Below are positions 12,048-17,697 of a stretch of DNA of 18,423 nt, piece after piece; positions within the stretch are counted from its first letter, which is position 1; each line of letters opens with the position of its first letter. Both the position numbers and the translations under genes were made by a program. This DNA comes from Streptomyces sp. NRRL S-118 (GTDB lineage: Bacteria; Actinomycetota; Actinomycetes; Streptomycetales; Streptomycetaceae): assembly GCF_000716335.1 (NCBI RefSeq), contig NZ_KL591031.1, positions 39,477 through 57,899 on the forward strand, in the 5' to 3' direction. Under the pieces are notes generated by a model. The model ran no database searches and was not told the DNA's origin. It saw only the letters and a list, made by a program, of their open reading frames with translations.

Positions 12048-12416
12048 CGACGGAGGACAGCGCGGATGGCGGCATGGGCCGGGGAGTACGAGGGCGCTGG
12101 TTCCGGATGCCGCCCAAGCAGACGGCGGAAGCACCCGGTTGTTTCTGCCGGGTAGCGGACGACGGTGTCCGGTCGCGGTGCCCGCACTCGTAGGGAGCAC
12201 CGATCACGAGCCGGTGTGCGTCGGCCATGCCCCCCTCACCGTCGCGATCGTGCCGAGCATCGTCCGGAACAGCATCGGCATGGATCTCGGAACAACAGGG
12301 GGCCTTGCGGTCGACGTGGCGGCCCGGACGGCTGTCCAGGACCTGGGGGAGACCCTTGAGGCGCCCCGGCCCGGACGGCTCTCGCCGAACGCCCGCCCGG
12401 CCTGCCCCTGAGCTCG
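12048..12416. other. Gene-free stretch after the TPR remnant
   Basis: About 370 bases. A plus-strand frame to 12411 reads HAPLTVAIVPSIVRNSIGMD and then LGTTGGLAVDVAARTAVQDL. This looks more protein-like than the surroundings, but I cannot assign it. No ribosome site, RNA gene or repeat was found. Confidence 0.35.
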
Positions 12417-12695
12417 TCAGGCCTCACCCGGGTGCATCAACCGGATCGGGCCGGTGACCTGGAAGCGCAGCGGGACTCCGTCGACGGTGACCGGTTCCTG
12501 CGGGAGGTCGGCGCTCGATTGCAGGTACACCGTGATGCAGTACGAGGTGCCGGGCGGGGCCGTCTGTCCGATGCCCAATCCGACGGCTCGGTAGGTCGCC
12601 AGTATGTGCGCCCGATGCCGGTTCAGGGTGCTGCGGACGCGCTCAAGGGTGTTCGGCTCGCTCATGAGGGCTCTGGCCTGTTCGCGACGGATCAT
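12417..12695 (-). CDS. Small protein resembling the N-terminal domain of the neighbouring protease
   Basis: A 92-residue soluble protein. After a basic helix (IRREQARALMSEPNTLERVRSTL) it reads HILATYRAVGLGIGQ, YCITVYLQSSADLP and VDGVPLRFQVTGPIRLMHP. The same order of elements occurs in residues 30-90 of the divergent protease: NIVGMAFGQ, PAVVIYVARKVSDQYLP, IEVDVVETGPVYP. I therefore read it as a free version of that domain; in trypsin-like proteins of this type such a VGxGxG...V.V..TG segment precedes the catalytic domain. It might be a protease partner or inhibitor, which is inference. ATG 12695 is chosen because AAGG lies 5 bases upstream. A GTG at 12755 would add 20 residues, and an ATG at 12665 would remove ten. 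A 349-base gap separates it from the protease. Confidence 0.6.
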   Translation of the reverse strand: MIRREQARALMSEPNTLERVRSTLNRHRAHILATYRAVGLGIGQTAPPGTSYCITVYLQSSADLPQEPVTVDGVPLRFQVTGPIRLMHPGEA

Positions 12696-13044
12696 GCGGA
12701 CCTTGTCCTCGAGCGTACCGGCCGTCCGGCTCCGCCGCGCCGCCGGCGCGAGCACGGCTGCCCGGCGCTGGTCGGCGACCGGAGGACCGCGTACCGCGGG
12801 GACCTCCGGTCCGGGCCGCTGCCCGCGGGACGGCCGCTCCGGGACGACCCCGCGGGCGATCAGGACGTACCGGCCAGGTGAGCGCTGTCACCGGCACAGC
12901 CGATCAGAAGGGGTCGCGGGGCGTGGGACATCGGATGCTTCAGGTAGGTGGAAGTGCGGCGAGCTGCGCATCCGATCGCATCACGGGCCGTGACGTGGGC
13001 CGGGGTCGGCCGTGGCCGGAGGAGCGGACCGGGAGAGGATCTGC
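12696..13044. other. Divergent intergenic region between the small protein and the protease operon
   Basis: About 350 bases that must carry promoters in both directions. I could not pick out a convincing -35/-10 pair or operator. The ribosome site of the protease gene, GGGAGAGG, is at 13031-13038. Confidence 0.4.
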
Positions 13045-14508
13045 GTGGACGAGCGCTATGCGAAAGCCCGGGCCTTGTCCCAGACCGTGAGAAGGACGTA
13101 CTGGCCGGCGTACCAACGGGATTCCAACATCGTGGGCATGGCCTTCGGGCAGCGGATCACCGGCGGGCGCCGGACCGATGAACCCGCCGTGGTGATCTAC
13201 GTGGCCCGCAAGGTCTCCGACCAGTACCTCCCGCGCTCCCGGCACCTGCCCCGGCGCCTGTACGTGGGAAGCGACTCCATCGAGGTCGACGTGGTGGAGA
13301 CCGGGCCCGTCTACCCGCTGGAGTTCACGGCCCGGACCCGGCCGGCGCCCTCCGGGATCAGTGTCGGCCACCAGCTCGTCAGCGCGGGAACCCTGGGATG
13401 CCTGGTACGGGACAACACCGACTCGAGCCTGTGCATCCTCAGCAACAATCACATCCTGGCCAATCACAATGCCGCCATGCCCGGCGACGCGATCATCCAG
13501 CCCGGCACCATGGACGGTGGCACCGCGCCCGGCGACACCATCGCCACGCTCAAACGCTTCATCACCATCGGCATGTCCGGCAACACCGTCGATGCCGCCA
13601 TCGCCCAGGTGACCAATCCTGGTGACGTCGTCGACCGGATGATGAACAACCTCATGCCGATGCCGAGCCCCGGCCATCCCGCCGTGGGACTGCTCTTCGC
13701 CGGCTCCTGCAACCGCACCTTCCTCAACCCCATCCAGGACGTGATGTCCCAGCTCAACATCGCTTTCCCCGCCGGAGCAGGCTCGACCGCCACCGCCCGG
13801 ATCGGGATGAACGTCGAGAAGGTCGGGCGCACCACCGAGTACACGACCTCGACCGTCCTCGAGATCGACGCGACGCTGACGCTCAACTACGACTTCGGTC
13901 CGGCCACGTTCGACAACCAGATCGCCACCGCCTGGCTCTGCGAAGGCGGGGACTCGGGATCCATCGTCTGCCAGGGCGGGGCGGGCGGCAACGAGGACCA
14001 CTGCAGTGGCTGCCTGATCATCTCCATGGCTTCCAGCATGCTCGGCGAGGACCTGTCCGTGCACCAGCAACTGGAGAAGGAGTTCCGGGAGCAGCACCTG
14101 AGCCGGACGCGCATCGGCAAGTACCTGATCGATGTGTTCTTCCACAACGAGGAAAGGCTGGTGAACCGGGCCCGGCAGACACGGCTGAGCGAAGAGGACC
14201 GGGCCCACGCACGCAGGCTGTACGACCGCTATGCCGAGCTGATCACACGGATCATGGCCCGGCCCTACGTCGATGAGACGCGCCTGTCGGCCGAGGACCT
14301 CGCCGAAGCACGGCAGGCACTCGACCTGGCCAAGAAGTACATGACCGCCGAGGAAGGCGCGGTGGCGGACGAACTGTTCAACCTCGCCAAGGGCGCCCAG
14401 GGACTCAAGCCCGGTGAGATCCTCCAGATGCTCAACCACCCCGGACTCCACAACCGGGTGAAGCAGTTGGTCTCCCGGATCGACTTCCTCCAGCAGCCCG
14501 AGCCGTGA
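13045..14508 (+). CDS. Cytoplasmic trypsin-fold serine protease
   Basis: A 487-residue protein with no signal peptide or membrane segment. Residues 25-90 form an N-terminal alpha/beta domain (NIVGMAFGQ ... VVIYVARKVSDQYLP ... VDVVETGPVYP). Residues 100-340 are a chymotrypsin-like domain with a full triad: H136 in LSNNHILANHN (the His box), D183 in NTVDAAIAQV, and S304 in CEGGDSGSIV (GGDSG 301-305). A Cys-containing insert CQGGAGGNEDHCSGC follows. Residues 365-487 are helical and charged (LSEEDRAHARRLYDRYAELI), of unknown function. GTG 13045 is chosen because GGGAGAGG lies 6 bases upstream; a GTG at 13012 would add 11 residues. Its TGA overlaps the GTG of the next gene (GTGA, 14505-14508), so the protease and the prenyl synthase are probably translated together. 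It may act on the synthase, the flavoprotein or an unknown target; there is no evidence which. Confidence 0.85.
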   Translation: MDERYAKARALSQTVRRTYWPAYQRDSNIVGMAFGQRITGGRRTDEPAVVIYVARKVSDQYLPRSRHLPRRLYVGSDSIEVDVVETGPVYPLEFTARTRPAPSGISVGHQLVSAGTLGCLVRDNTDSSLCILSNNHILANHNAAMPGDAIIQPGTMDGGTAPGDTIATLKRFITIGMSGNTVDAAIAQVTNPGDVVDRMMNNLMPMPSPGHPAVGLLFAGSCNRTFLNPIQDVMSQLNIAFPAGAGSTATARIGMNVEKVGRTTEYTTSTVLEIDATLTLNYDFGPATFDNQIATAWLCEGGDSGSIVCQGGAGGNEDHCSGCLIISMASSMLGEDLSVHQQLEKEFREQHLSRTRIGKYLIDVFFHNEERLVNRARQTRLSEEDRAHARRLYDRYAELITRIMARPYVDETRLSAEDLAEARQALDLAKKYMTAEEGAVADELFNLAKGAQGLKPGEILQMLNHPGLHNRVKQLVSRIDFLQQPEP

Positions 14509-15494
14509 CGACACTCCAGCCGACCGGTCGGCACTGGCTCGCGTGCCCCCGCACACGAGCGGCTCTCACCGGACTCGACGCCATCCTGCGCGAGGCGGCC
14601 ACCGCGGACGACCCGCTGCTGCGCATGATGGCCGGCCACCTGCTGCAGCGGGGCGGCAAACGGCTCAGACCGGCCCTGCTGGTGCTGTCCGCCTCCTACG
14701 GCACCTGCCGGCGCGAGCAACTGCTGCGGGCCGCAGCCGCACTGGAACTGGTGCACATCGCGTCCCTCTACCACGACGACGTGATGGACCGGGCACCCAC
14801 ACGGCGCGACGGGCCCAGTGCCAACGCCCGCTGGGGCGACGAACTGGCCGCTCTCGCCGGCACGTACCTGTTCGCCCGGGCCTCGCGCCTCCTGGTGACC
14901 CTGGGCGACGAACCCAACCGCGTCGCGGCCGAGGCCTTCCTGGACGTGTGCAGCGGACAGCTCCAGGAGGCGGAGAACGCCTACGACACCGGCCTCGACG
15001 AAGCGGAGCACCTCCGGATCCTCGCACGCAAGACGGCCACACTGTTCGAACTGCCCTGTCGCCTGGGCACCCAGCTGAGCAAGGCACCACCGGCGTACGC
15101 GGACGCCCTCCGGTCCTACGGACGCAGCCTCGGTCTGGCGTTCCAGCTCACCGACGACGTCCTGGACCTGCCGGGCCGGGGCCGCGGGTCGGGCAAGTCG
15201 ACCGGCACCGACGTGCGCGAGGGGGTCTACTGCCTGACCGTGCTGCGCGCCGTACGGATGGGCGGCGACGTCGGCGCGCGGCTCGCCGCGCTGCTGGGCC
15301 GTGAGGACATGACCGCCGAGCAGGTGGCCGAGGTCTACCGGCTGGTGGAGAGCACCGACGCCGGGCCCGCGGTGCTCGAGCTGGCCCGCTCCCACGCGGC
15401 GGAGGCCCTGGAAGCGCTCCGGGTGCTGCCCGAGGGACCACCGCGCGAGTCCATGGAGAACCTGGCCCGGCACGTGCTCACCAGGTCCAGGTGA
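14505..15494 (+). CDS. Polyprenyl diphosphate synthase (trans-isoprenyl chain-elongating)
   Basis: A 329-residue all-helical prenyltransferase that condenses isopentenyl diphosphate with an allylic diphosphate. All expected motifs are present: GGKRLRP at 50-56 (IPP binding), the first aspartate-rich motif DDVMD at 91-95 in LYHDDVMDRAPTRR, KTATLFELPC near 172, and the second motif FQLTDDVLD at 213-221 followed by GKSTGTDVREG. The residues 5 and 4 before the first motif are Ala and Ser. Small residues here are associated in this family with longer products (C25 or more) rather than C15/C20; this is inference. The GTG start overlaps the protease stop by four bases. The gene downstream encodes a flavoprotein fused to a degenerate copy of this same enzyme, which suggests the two prenyltransferase domains pair or share a substrate. 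Confidence 0.92.
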   Translation: MTTLQPTGRHWLACPRTRAALTGLDAILREAATADDPLLRMMAGHLLQRGGKRLRPALLVLSASYGTCRREQLLRAAAALELVHIASLYHDDVMDRAPTRRDGPSANARWGDELAALAGTYLFARASRLLVTLGDEPNRVAAEAFLDVCSGQLQEAENAYDTGLDEAEHLRILARKTATLFELPCRLGTQLSKAPPAYADALRSYGRSLGLAFQLTDDVLDLPGRGRGSGKSTGTDVREGVYCLTVLRAVRMGGDVGARLAALLGREDMTAEQVAEVYRLVESTDAGPAVLELARSHAAEALEALRVLPEGPPRESMENLARHVLTRSR

Positions 15495-15507: not shown

Positions 15508-17697
15508 GTGGACGCAGACGTCATCGTGGTCGGCGCGGGGCCGGCCGGGGCCACCACGGCGTACTGGCTGGCCCGCTACGGCCGGCGCGTGCTCCTGCTG
15601 GACGAGCAGGAGTTCCCCCGGCACAAGACGTGCGGCGATGCGGTCGGGGCGCCGGCCGTGCGCCTCCTCGGCGAGATGGGAGTGCTGCACCGGCTGCAGA
15701 AGGAGCACCGGGATCCGCTGCGCATCCGTGGCACCCGTGTGCGCGTGCACCGGCGGTGGCGCACCTTCACCCACGAAGCGGGGGACTGCGGACTGACCGT
15801 GCCGCGGATCGTCCTGGACGACGCGGTCCGCGCGCAGGCGGTCTCTGCCGGGGCCGACATGCTGCCGCGCACCCGAGCCGTCCGGCTTCTGCGGGACAAG
15901 GATGTGGTGGTCGGCGTGGAGGTGTCGCAGTCCGGCCGGGGTTCGCAGCTCCTGGCTCCCGTCGTGGTGGTGGCGTGCGGGGCCGCATCCGACGCACTGC
16001 TCCCACCCCCCTCCGGAACGGGCGCCGCGACGGGCCGCGGACACGCCGTACGGGGCTACGTGTCCGGGCTGACCGGGCTGACCGACATGCTGGAGATCCA
16101 CATGCCCGTGACGACTCCGGCCGGACACGGGCATCCGCCCGCCTACGGGTGGGTCTTTCCCACCGGCCCCTCGACCGCCAACGTCGGCGTGGGAGTCCTC
16201 GGAGCATGGCCGGGTGGTGACCCGGGCGGCCTCTGGGACACGTTCGTCCGCGCCCTGCGGGACACCGACCCGCGCTGCACGCACCTGCGACAGGACACAG
16301 CCCGCGAGGCCGCGCCCCTGCGTTTCGACTTCGTCCCCGAACGCTGCACCGCCCCCGGGGTCCTGGTGGTGGGCGATGCCGCCGGGATGGTGTCCCCGTT
16401 CACAGGCCACGGCATCGGGCCGGCCATGGAGTCCGGCCGCCTGGCGGCCACGGCCATCCACAGTCGGCTCCGGCCCGGGCTGTCGGCCCCACCGGATCTC
16501 TCCGGGTACGTCCGCAGCCTCAGGAACAGCTATGTCGGCCACTTCGAGGACGGCGATCGATCCGCACGCCGCCACCTGATGGTCTGGCGGACGCTGCACA
16601 GCACCTTCGAAGGTGAGCGGCCGCTGTTCGCGCTGGGCCGCAAAGCGCTCCTCTTCCCGGACGGGTGCAGCGAACTGCACATGACCCGCGTCCTCGACGA
16701 CGCCACATGCGTTCTCGGCGCGAGCGCGCCACGGCTGCGTGCGGATCTCCTCGCGGTCAGCGAGGTGCTCCTGGACGCCGTACGCACCGATTGGCCGTTC
16801 CTCGGTCGCATCACCGCGATGGGGCGGGGCGTGCCCACCGTTCCCCTGCGGCCGGCTCTCTTCACCCTGCTCGCCGGCCGGCTCGTCGCACCAGGACCCC
16901 ATCCCGCCGCGGCCGTCCTGGCCGCTGCCTCGGTCGAGCTCGGCTGCCTCGCCGCCCTGGCCGGGCTCAGCGTCACGGAGGGCACGCGCGACGCGGACGC
17001 CCCGCGTGCCCGGACGGCGGCGAACTGGGGCAACATGCTGGCGCTGATGGTCGGCGACTTCTTGCTCGGCAAGGCCAATGAGCTGGCCGCCCGCACGGGC
17101 ACCGAGGTGAGCCGGATCGTGGCGCAGGCGCTCGCCACCGTCACCGAAGGCCGGATCCGGCAACTCCGCCATGCCCACAACCCCCACCTCACCACGACCG
17201 AGCGCGTGGCGATCCTGACGGAGCAGACCGCCACGCTCTTCGCCCTGCCCTGTGAGCTGGGCGCCCTGCTCGCCGGCGCGACACCGGCCGAGGTCACCGC
17301 CCTCTCGGCATACGGCCGCCACCTCGGCCTGGCCTTCCAGCTGACCGAGGAAGCACGCAGCGCCACCGGCCGGCCCACCAGACTGGGCACGACACTGGCC
17401 TCCGACCTCGCATCCGGCACCTTCGGAGTCCCGGTGCTGCACGTCCTGCACCTCAACAGCAGCGTCAGCACACACCTGCGAACCGTCCTCACCGGACGGC
17501 CCCTCGACGACCAGCACGTCCGGACCGTCATCCGACTCGTCGAGGAAGGCCGGGGGGACACGGCGGCACGAGACTTGGCCACCCACCATGCCCATCAGGC
17601 ACGAGCCGCGCTGCAGCACTTCGCCCCGGGGCCGGTCCGGCACACCATGGAACGGCTGGTCGACCACACCCTGAATCCGCCCCCCGGGTCTGCTTGA
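15508..17697 (+). CDS. Geranylgeranyl-reductase-type flavoprotein fused to a catalytically dead polyprenyl synthase domain
   Basis: A 729-residue fusion. Residues 1-385 are an FAD-dependent oxidoreductase of the geranylgeranyl reductase family: GAGPAG (9-14) for ADP binding, RHKTCGDAVGAPAV (39-51, the conserved KxCGD box), and VVGDAAGMVSPFTGHGIG (about 287-304) for the FAD ribityl. These enzymes reduce double bonds of prenyl chains. After a linker (386-415), residues 416-725 align with the upstream synthase along their length (QTATLFALPCELGALLAG; AYGRHLGLAFQLTEEARS; RHTMERLVDHTL). Its catalytic motifs are gone, however. GGKRLRP is VPTVPLRP (442-449), DDVMD is LSVTE (487-491), and DDVLD is EEARS (614-618). 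It should bind no Mg-diphosphate and make no product. GTG 15508 has AAAGGGG 7 bases upstream, only 13 bases after the synthase stop. The sequence is continuous and in frame, with normal codon use, so the loss of motifs is not a sequencing slip. Confidence 0.88.
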   Translation: MDADVIVVGAGPAGATTAYWLARYGRRVLLLDEQEFPRHKTCGDAVGAPAVRLLGEMGVLHRLQKEHRDPLRIRGTRVRVHRRWRTFTHEAGDCGLTVPRIVLDDAVRAQAVSAGADMLPRTRAVRLLRDKDVVVGVEVSQSGRGSQLLAPVVVVACGAASDALLPPPSGTGAATGRGHAVRGYVSGLTGLTDMLEIHMPVTTPAGHGHPPAYGWVFPTGPSTANVGVGVLGAWPGGDPGGLWDTFVRALRDTDPRCTHLRQDTAREAAPLRFDFVPERCTAPGVLVVGDAAGMVSPFTGHGIGPAMESGRLAATAIHSRLRPGLSAPPDLSGYVRSLRNSYVGHFEDGDRSARRHLMVWRTLHSTFEGERPLFALGRKALLFPDGCSELHMTRVLDDATCVLGASAPRLRADLLAVSEVLLDAVRTDWPFLGRITAMGRGVPTVPLRPALFTLLAGRLVAPGPHPAAAVLAAASVELGCLAALAGLSVTEGTRDADAPRARTAANWGNMLALMVGDFLLGKANELAARTGTEVSRIVAQALATVTEGRIRQLRHAHNPHLTTTERVAILTEQTATLFALPCELGALLAGATPAEVTALSAYGRHLGLAFQLTEEARSATGRPTRLGTTLASDLASGTFGVPVLHVLHLNSSVSTHLRTVLTGRPLDDQHVRTVIRLVEEGRGDTAARDLATHHAHQARAALQHFAPGPVRHTMERLVDHTLNPPPGSA

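Follow-up and report, generated by a model that had tools for sequence, protein, structure and literature searches.

The window, by which we mean the whole 18,423-nucleotide stretch of Streptomyces sp. NRRL S-118 DNA that was analysed, encodes a protein that joins a flavoprotein of the GG-reductase family to a trans-prenyl-synthase domain devoid of its catalytic motifs, and an intact synthase is encoded immediately upstream. We propose, at a probability of about 0.58, that in a heteromeric trans-prenyl diphosphate synthase the fusion protein serves as the non-catalytic subunit and carries a prenyl reductase with it. The synthase and the fusion together form the constant core of a protease-bearing cassette, which an earlier note on this DNA had overlooked. 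The features concerned are:

12417..12665, minus strand: small divergent ORF of 82 aa (MSEPNTL...), found in all four type 1 cassettes
13012..14508, plus strand: NAL1-like serine protease of 498 aa (PF25608, 41.9 bits; rice NARROW LEAF 1 structures, E 2.5e-7)
14505..15494, plus strand: intact partner trans-prenyl synthase of 329 aa, all three motifs kept
15508..17697, plus strand: fusion gene, GG-reductase-family flavoprotein and dead trans-prenyl-synthase domain, 729 aa in one uninterrupted frame
15508..16542, plus strand: reductase part, residues 1-345 (TIGR02032, motifs, fold match to 3oz2 and 3atq), with GxGPAG (9-14), PRxKxCGD including Cys42, YGWVFP (213-218) and GDAAG (289-293)
16699..17682, plus strand: dead synthase domain, about residues 398-725 (PF00348, BLASTP to the upstream synthase, 9imq)
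16834..16845, plus strand: lost GGKR site, PTVP here (residues 443-446); K replaced by V or I in 30 and R by P in 28 of 33 dead domains
16966..16980, plus strand: lost first DDxxD site, DDVMD to LSVTE (residues 487-491); second D replaced by S in 30 of 33 dead domains
17347..17361, plus strand: degraded second DDxxD site, DDVLD to EEARS (residues 614-618), acids remaining

The similarity of the two neighbouring genes is far greater than chance would give. BLASTP aligned fusion residues 406-723 with the upstream synthase over 323 columns, 114 of them identical (35%, 139 bits, E 8e-41), and the alignment includes the KTATLF/QTATLF and GLAFQLT blocks. This agrees with the earlier note, which had read both the homology and the shared blocks from the sequence, but the homologous region extends over about 320-330 residues, not the 310 it gave. 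Its statement that the frame is intact and codon use normal also holds, as the GC content by codon position of the single 729-aa ORF (0.76/0.55/0.88) is near that of the synthase gene (0.77/0.52/0.90). The profile search that the note had suggested recovered PF00348, FAD-binding families and TIGR02032. The PF00348 match covers fusion residues 505-677 (94.3 bits against a cut-off of 27, E 9.3e-27), and among PDB structures the dead domain matches the nonaprenyl diphosphate synthase 9imq (E 2e-32). A single-chain structure model of the fusion reached a pLDDT of 85.3 and a pTM of 0.84; because the reductase half filled the fold search run with the whole model, the fold of the dead domain rests on its sequence and on the helical model.

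In the window's dead domain GGKR and both DDxxD motifs, by which an active synthase is recognised, are all replaced. The same claim in the earlier note stands for GGKR and for the first DDxxD, which is gone, but the second is better called degraded, with acidic residues left in place. A protein homology search gave 84 matches, of which 36 (P0001-P0035 and P0052, the P0009 row being a 441-aa fragment) were aligned over their C-terminal parts. The first DDxxD is absent from 35 of these rows, and homologues keeping it, which the note had named as evidence against its own reading, come down to P0033, which branches elsewhere; the second DDxxD is kept in P0008, P0010 and P0033. Motif residues were tabulated for 33 dead domains (P0001-P0031, L079 and L016) and 15 partner-like synthases. 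Neither the lysine nor the arginine of GGKR is kept in any dead domain, the first aspartate of the first motif survives in 1/33 (leucine replaces it in 21) and the second in none, whereas all 15 partner-like synthases keep every residue tabulated, those of the second motif and the KT lysine included. Acids of the second motif persist more often (19, 13 and 3 of 33 for its three aspartates) and the lysine of the KT segment is present in 18/33, so some ligand binding may persist in the dead domains. At the same time R426, W429, P430, R448 and P449 are invariant in 30 aligned fusions, and S488 and V489 nearly so; such conserved replacements at the old catalytic sites look like the mark of a new role rather than of drift.

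Six full-length fusion loci were available as DNA: the window, G210, S. roseoverticillatus (L009), S. olivoreticuli (L010), G101 (L016) and the Rhodococcus oxybenzonivorans plasmid pRB98 (L079). In all six an intact synthase lies immediately upstream of the fusion, and the fusion frame is open; about 26 of the 30 aligned fusions are known here as proteins alone. In the window the synthase gene starts with GTG and shares 4 bases with the protease gene, and the fusion starts after a gap of 13 bases. Two cassette types were recognised. Type 1 (four loci) consists of the divergent small ORF, the NAL1-like protease, the synthase and the fusion, while type 2 (G101 and pRB98) consists of a small ORF, an S8 protease, an SCP2-like protein, the synthase and the fusion. 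In an all-against-all tblastn comparison (E 1e-8, at least 60 aa), the matches listed lie within the cassette blocks, and the synthase and the fusion are the sole genes common to both types. Among the partial matches, L011 and L081 cover the synthase part only and the synthase part, respectively, and L080 the reductase part.

The dead domain is under purifying selection. Nei-Gojobori dN/dS values for four non-independent pairs among four Streptomyces loci were 0.27, 0.23, 0.26 and 0.29 for the dead domain, 0.28, 0.20, 0.34 and 0.33 for the partner synthase, and 0.46, 0.36, 0.35 and 0.36 for the reductase part (residues 1-345). The constraint on the dead domain is thus similar to that on its partner, and its dN/dS is below that of the reductase part in every pair. 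A functionless, decaying synthase remnant carried along by the reductase would account for the lost catalytic motifs, but it is strongly disfavoured and very improbable, given these values, the open frames at all six loci, the new invariant residues in 30 fusions and a single clade that extends from Streptomyces to Rhodococcus.

That clade was recovered in a careful tree of 38 rows, comprising 18 of the 33 dead domains, 13 partner-like synthases, four paralogues from the host genome and three other synthases. The dead domains form one clade (support 100/99), the partner-like synthases group together (90/82), and the two are joined apart from the host paralogues and the other synthases (97/95); the non-host synthases came from the dead-domain search, which limits the outgroup sample. 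A quick wider tree (54 rows, with 25 dead domains and six host paralogues) agrees. Of the host's ten PF00348 matches, the synthase and the fusion are two; among the other eight, L004 was dropped for having no recognised motif and the C20 match was left out of the trees. The host also has three TIGR02032 matches over the cut-off, the fusion among them, and since further matches to both families exist in the genome, the pair is additional to its other copies. The reductase parts of 28 fusions likewise fall together (support 90). When the dead domain was used as the query by itself (E 1e-12), the 18 matches listed were a fragment of a fusion (P0009) and 17 proteins of synthase length. Motifs are intact in all nine of the 17 that were tabulated (P0085, P0087-P0093 and P0095), and within this range no unfused dead copy was seen. 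Duplication, fusion and loss of catalysis is the path these comparisons indicate. Together with the 6/6 adjacency and the purifying selection, this common origin gives good support to the view, already taken in the earlier note, that the domain has been retained for a role other than catalysis, in the pathway that its neighbouring synthase serves.

Trans-prenyl synthases act as dimers, and a usual path to a heteromer is duplication of the gene, loss of catalysis in one copy and retention of both side by side. As would be expected of a non-catalytic subunit, the dead domain is homologous to the active subunit, has lost the motifs that the latter keeps, and is encoded beside it. In the mechanism we propose, the upstream synthase would make an all-trans chain and the dead domain would most likely take the place of the second subunit, since these enzymes are dimers. 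It would thereby tie the active synthase to the reductase and may tune chain length or activity. The chain would then pass to the flavoprotein domain, which would hydrogenate one or more of its double bonds. Physical contact, channelling, the length of the chain, the double bonds affected and the eventual purpose of the lipid are what we infer here. In all eight partner sequences compared, A or G and then S stand five and four places before the first DDxxD; small residues there presumably favour long products, which suggests that the partner makes a long chain.

Evidence on contact between the two synthase chains is mixed. Distances among dead domains and among partners correlate closely over eight pairs (r 0.988, Mantel p 0.0006), two of which (P0006/P0085 and P0007/P0087) are presumed pairings and suggestive only, and linked inheritance alone can explain such a correlation, with no need for contact. 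In the segments labelled helices E and F, which we take to be the usual dimer interface, mean identity between dead and partner-like sequences is 0.35 and 0.23, against 0.57 in the KT segment and 0.58 in the segment preceding the second motif; a preserved dimer interface is not indicated by these values. The divergence of these presumed dimer helices suits a different arrangement, in which two dead domains pair with each other, their sole task being to dimerise the reductase or to hold its substrate by the tail, and the synthase is a separate homodimer of the same pathway. Hydrophobic replacements at the former diphosphate site (K to V or I, and D1 to L, at the frequencies given above) would also suit hydrocarbon binding. 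Such self-pairing does not itself predict, however, that the dead domain should be most closely related to partner-type synthases, nor that the pair should persist in both cassette types while all else changes, and we consider it rather unlikely, though well ahead of a decaying remnant. A further point against the heteromeric reading is that the partner-like group, supported at only 90/82, includes synthases with no known adjoining fusion, such as P0093 from Micromonospora (which stands for 36 sequences), so the synthase may also function alone.

In the window's fusion the reductase half carries the marks of its family. TIGR02032 covers fusion residues 4-317 with 178.2 bits against a curated cut-off of 158.8 (NCBIfam), Pfam adds matches to FAD-binding families, and the GGR structures 3oz2 and 3atq are fold matches of this half of the model. 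According to the accessible part of PMC6309074, a critical cysteine and the YXWXFP motif are common to GGRs proven to reduce prenyl substrates. The window's fusion has the flavin-site motifs, the redox cysteine and YxWxFP. Across 30 aligned fusions Cys42 is invariant and YxWxFP is present in 28, the exceptions being P0002 (H for F) and P0017 (A for P). Translations of the subtilase-type loci depart from this motif (FGWINP in L016 and FGWIHY in L079), and in L079 GAAAG replaces GDAAG; these departures weigh against the proposed mechanism.

The remaining cassette genes differ between the types. The His, Asp and Ser of the type 1 protease lie in LSNNH, DAAIAQV and GGDSGS, motifs found in all four type 1 loci, and are likely to be the catalytic set, their roles being assigned from the sequence. 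Protease matches at E 1e-10 occurred in 46 of 392 genus genomes, full-length only in the three with a type 1 cassette, after which scores fall from 917 to 91 bits. The 82-aa ORF matches no Pfam or NCBIfam family, and that it regulates the protease is a guess. BLASTP did not support its being a paralogue of the protease N-domain (13.9 bits), and the equivalent comparison for the subtilase-type small ORF was weak (20 bits, E 0.026). In type 2 the SCP2-like protein of 150 aa (L079:10570-11022, plus strand; L016, about 12350-12850, minus strand) resembles UbiJ/SCP2 lipid carriers in its predicted structure; the pRB98 copy has no Pfam match and its relatives have no NCBIfam match. Beside the G101 cassette lies a second S8-family protein (L016:5404-7260, minus strand), probably a dead protease, with IGTGV for DTG and GTGTASAHLAG for GTSMATPHVAG. 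The cassette is also adjoined by a Gln-rich protein of 155 aa (L016:7284-7751, minus strand) with no match in the stretch of pRB98 examined.

The cassette is rare, and the earlier note's concern that the fusion might be peculiar to one strain is answered by its presence in other strains and genera. At E 1e-60 the fusion was found in four of 392 sampled Streptomyces genomes, the window's own included. Among the matches listed at E 1e-70, with two candidates scored per genome and samples overlapping the genus sample, it was full-length in 2/394 class genomes and 1/396 phylum genomes (the window's alone), and the other matches listed stop before residue 382, i.e., they cover the reductase part only. 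P0002 is a protein of S. ficellus, and other named sources of the fusion include Actinomadura chokoriensis, Rhodovulum sulfidophilum and an Acidimicrobiales MAG. The SCP2-like family was present in one of the 392 Streptomyces genomes, the type 2 one (E 1e-6). Viral contigs gave four matches to the fusion protein, reaching at most residues 4-218 and none of them a fusion, and no match to the SCP2-like family. pRB98 is typed as mobilizable, with transposases and a zeta-toxin gene near the cassette. No description of the fusion or the cassette was found in open PubMed Central papers, those on conflict systems included.

These features allow wider readings of the cassette. It may be a pathway for a specialised metabolite or modified peptide, the protease maturing a peptide whose lipid comes from the prenyl module; this idea is compatible with the other readings, and we hold it only tentatively. 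Its sporadic and self-contained nature, its occurrence once on a plasmid and, in G101, its position about 22 kb from a contig end fit such a pathway, as does the setting of a protein distantly related to the window's protease, but Pfam scans found no cyclase, prenyl-acceptor transferase or methyltransferase in the cassette proteins they covered, and a precursor peptide was not identified. The related protein, on a Rhizobium ruizarguesonis plasmid (L103:3390-6939), has as neighbours a radical SAM protein and a HEXXH protein for peptide modification; conjugation genes surround them, and the whole looks like a peptide-modification cluster. It is also possible, though doubtful, that the pair is the constant centre of a mobile module not recognised before. 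The module would couple an interchangeable serine protease (NAL1-like or subtilase) to a dedicated apparatus for a reduced polyprenyl lipid, which a UbiJ/SCP2-like carrier would pass on in one type; it might serve lipid signalling or conflict, gated by the protease, and not housekeeping metabolism.

Several assignments to known systems were considered and set aside. The upstream synthase scores 199 bits against the encapsulin-cargo model NF041169, far under its cut-off of 450. No PADLOC or NCBIfam match amounts to membership of a defence system. In PADLOC the synthase, protease and small ORF of the window had no match, nor did three pRB98 proteins (the small ORF, the SCP2-like protein and the synthase), and the fusion had a weak desaturase match (E 6e-4). 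The S8 protease of pRB98 matched the PADLOC 'subtilase' model (127 bits; best anti-phage IetS model, 49.5 bits), and the second S8 protein of G101 matched it at 31 bits; in NCBIfam the nearest model to the former was the T7SS mycosin, at 132 bits where the cut-off is 279, and the anti-phage IteS model gave 39 bits against a cut-off of 900. Five of 11 plasmid records with a relative of the protease annotate that relative as a DNA/RNA non-specific endonuclease, which calls to mind the peptidase-NucA systems that Kaur 2020 lists as System 3 of its conflict systems. These combine, in the accessible part of PMC7159879, a trypsin-like peptidase with a NucA endonuclease; a NAL1/trypsin-like protease is also present in the type 1 cassette, but the cassette proteins scanned contain no NucA family, and this assignment was rejected.

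Among systems closer to the pair itself, the single-domain GGR/MenJ family (TIGR02032; 3oz2 and 3atq) shares a flavoprotein fold and motifs with the N-terminal portion of the fusion but has no synthase domain. P0033 (720 aa) also joins a reductase-family flavoprotein to a trans-prenyl synthase; unlike in the window's fusion, the synthase keeps its motifs (HDDIMD and DDWLD), and each of its halves falls on another branch in the tree for that half (supports 86 and 91). It is probably an independent fusion with an apparently active synthase, and it suggests that a link between the two activities was favoured on more than one occasion. The small subunits of HepS/HepT and of the Micrococcus luteus enzyme are not known to be recent paralogues of their active subunits. 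These bacterial heptaprenyl and hexaprenyl synthases are two-subunit enzymes, the M. luteus small subunit regulating chain length, and as described in the accessible part of PMC7839719 their small subunits, unlike the fusion, carry no reductase. The mint GPPS is a heterotetramer of large and small subunits in which the non-catalytic, homologous small subunit lacks DDxxD, as the dead domain does; it is a plant enzyme and, in the same part of that source, has no reductase attached (PMC7839719).

If the heteromeric reading is true, the inactive-paralogue scaffold known from plant isoprenoid complexes has been reached independently by bacteria, here in covalent form, and the pair offers a compact system for testing the transfer of a prenyl chain from synthase to reductase. 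It would illustrate an evolutionary path in which a dimeric enzyme is duplicated and one copy is killed and kept as a docking or regulatory domain, and its protease cassette hints at a use of isoprenoids that we did not find described in open papers. PDB entry 5xn6 contains the rice proteins Os07g0580900 and Os02g0668100, which we take to be GGPPS1 and GRP. Zhou reportedly described in 2017 a complex of rice GGPPS1 and GRP with GGR and LIL3. According to the accessible parts of PMC9399743 and PMC9863795, GRP is inactive, forms a heterodimer with GGPPS1, enhances its activity and brings it to the GGR complex. GRP, of the plant SSU II type, keeps the aspartate-rich motif that comes first and also has a pair of CxxxC motifs (PMC9863795, in part), whereas the dead domain lacks the first motif. 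As far as these sources go, GRP parallels the dead domain as an inactive synthase paralogue that pairs with an active enzyme and recruits it to geranylgeranyl reductase, but rice GGPPS1, GRP and GGR are separate proteins, whereas in the window the dead domain and the reductase are one chain.
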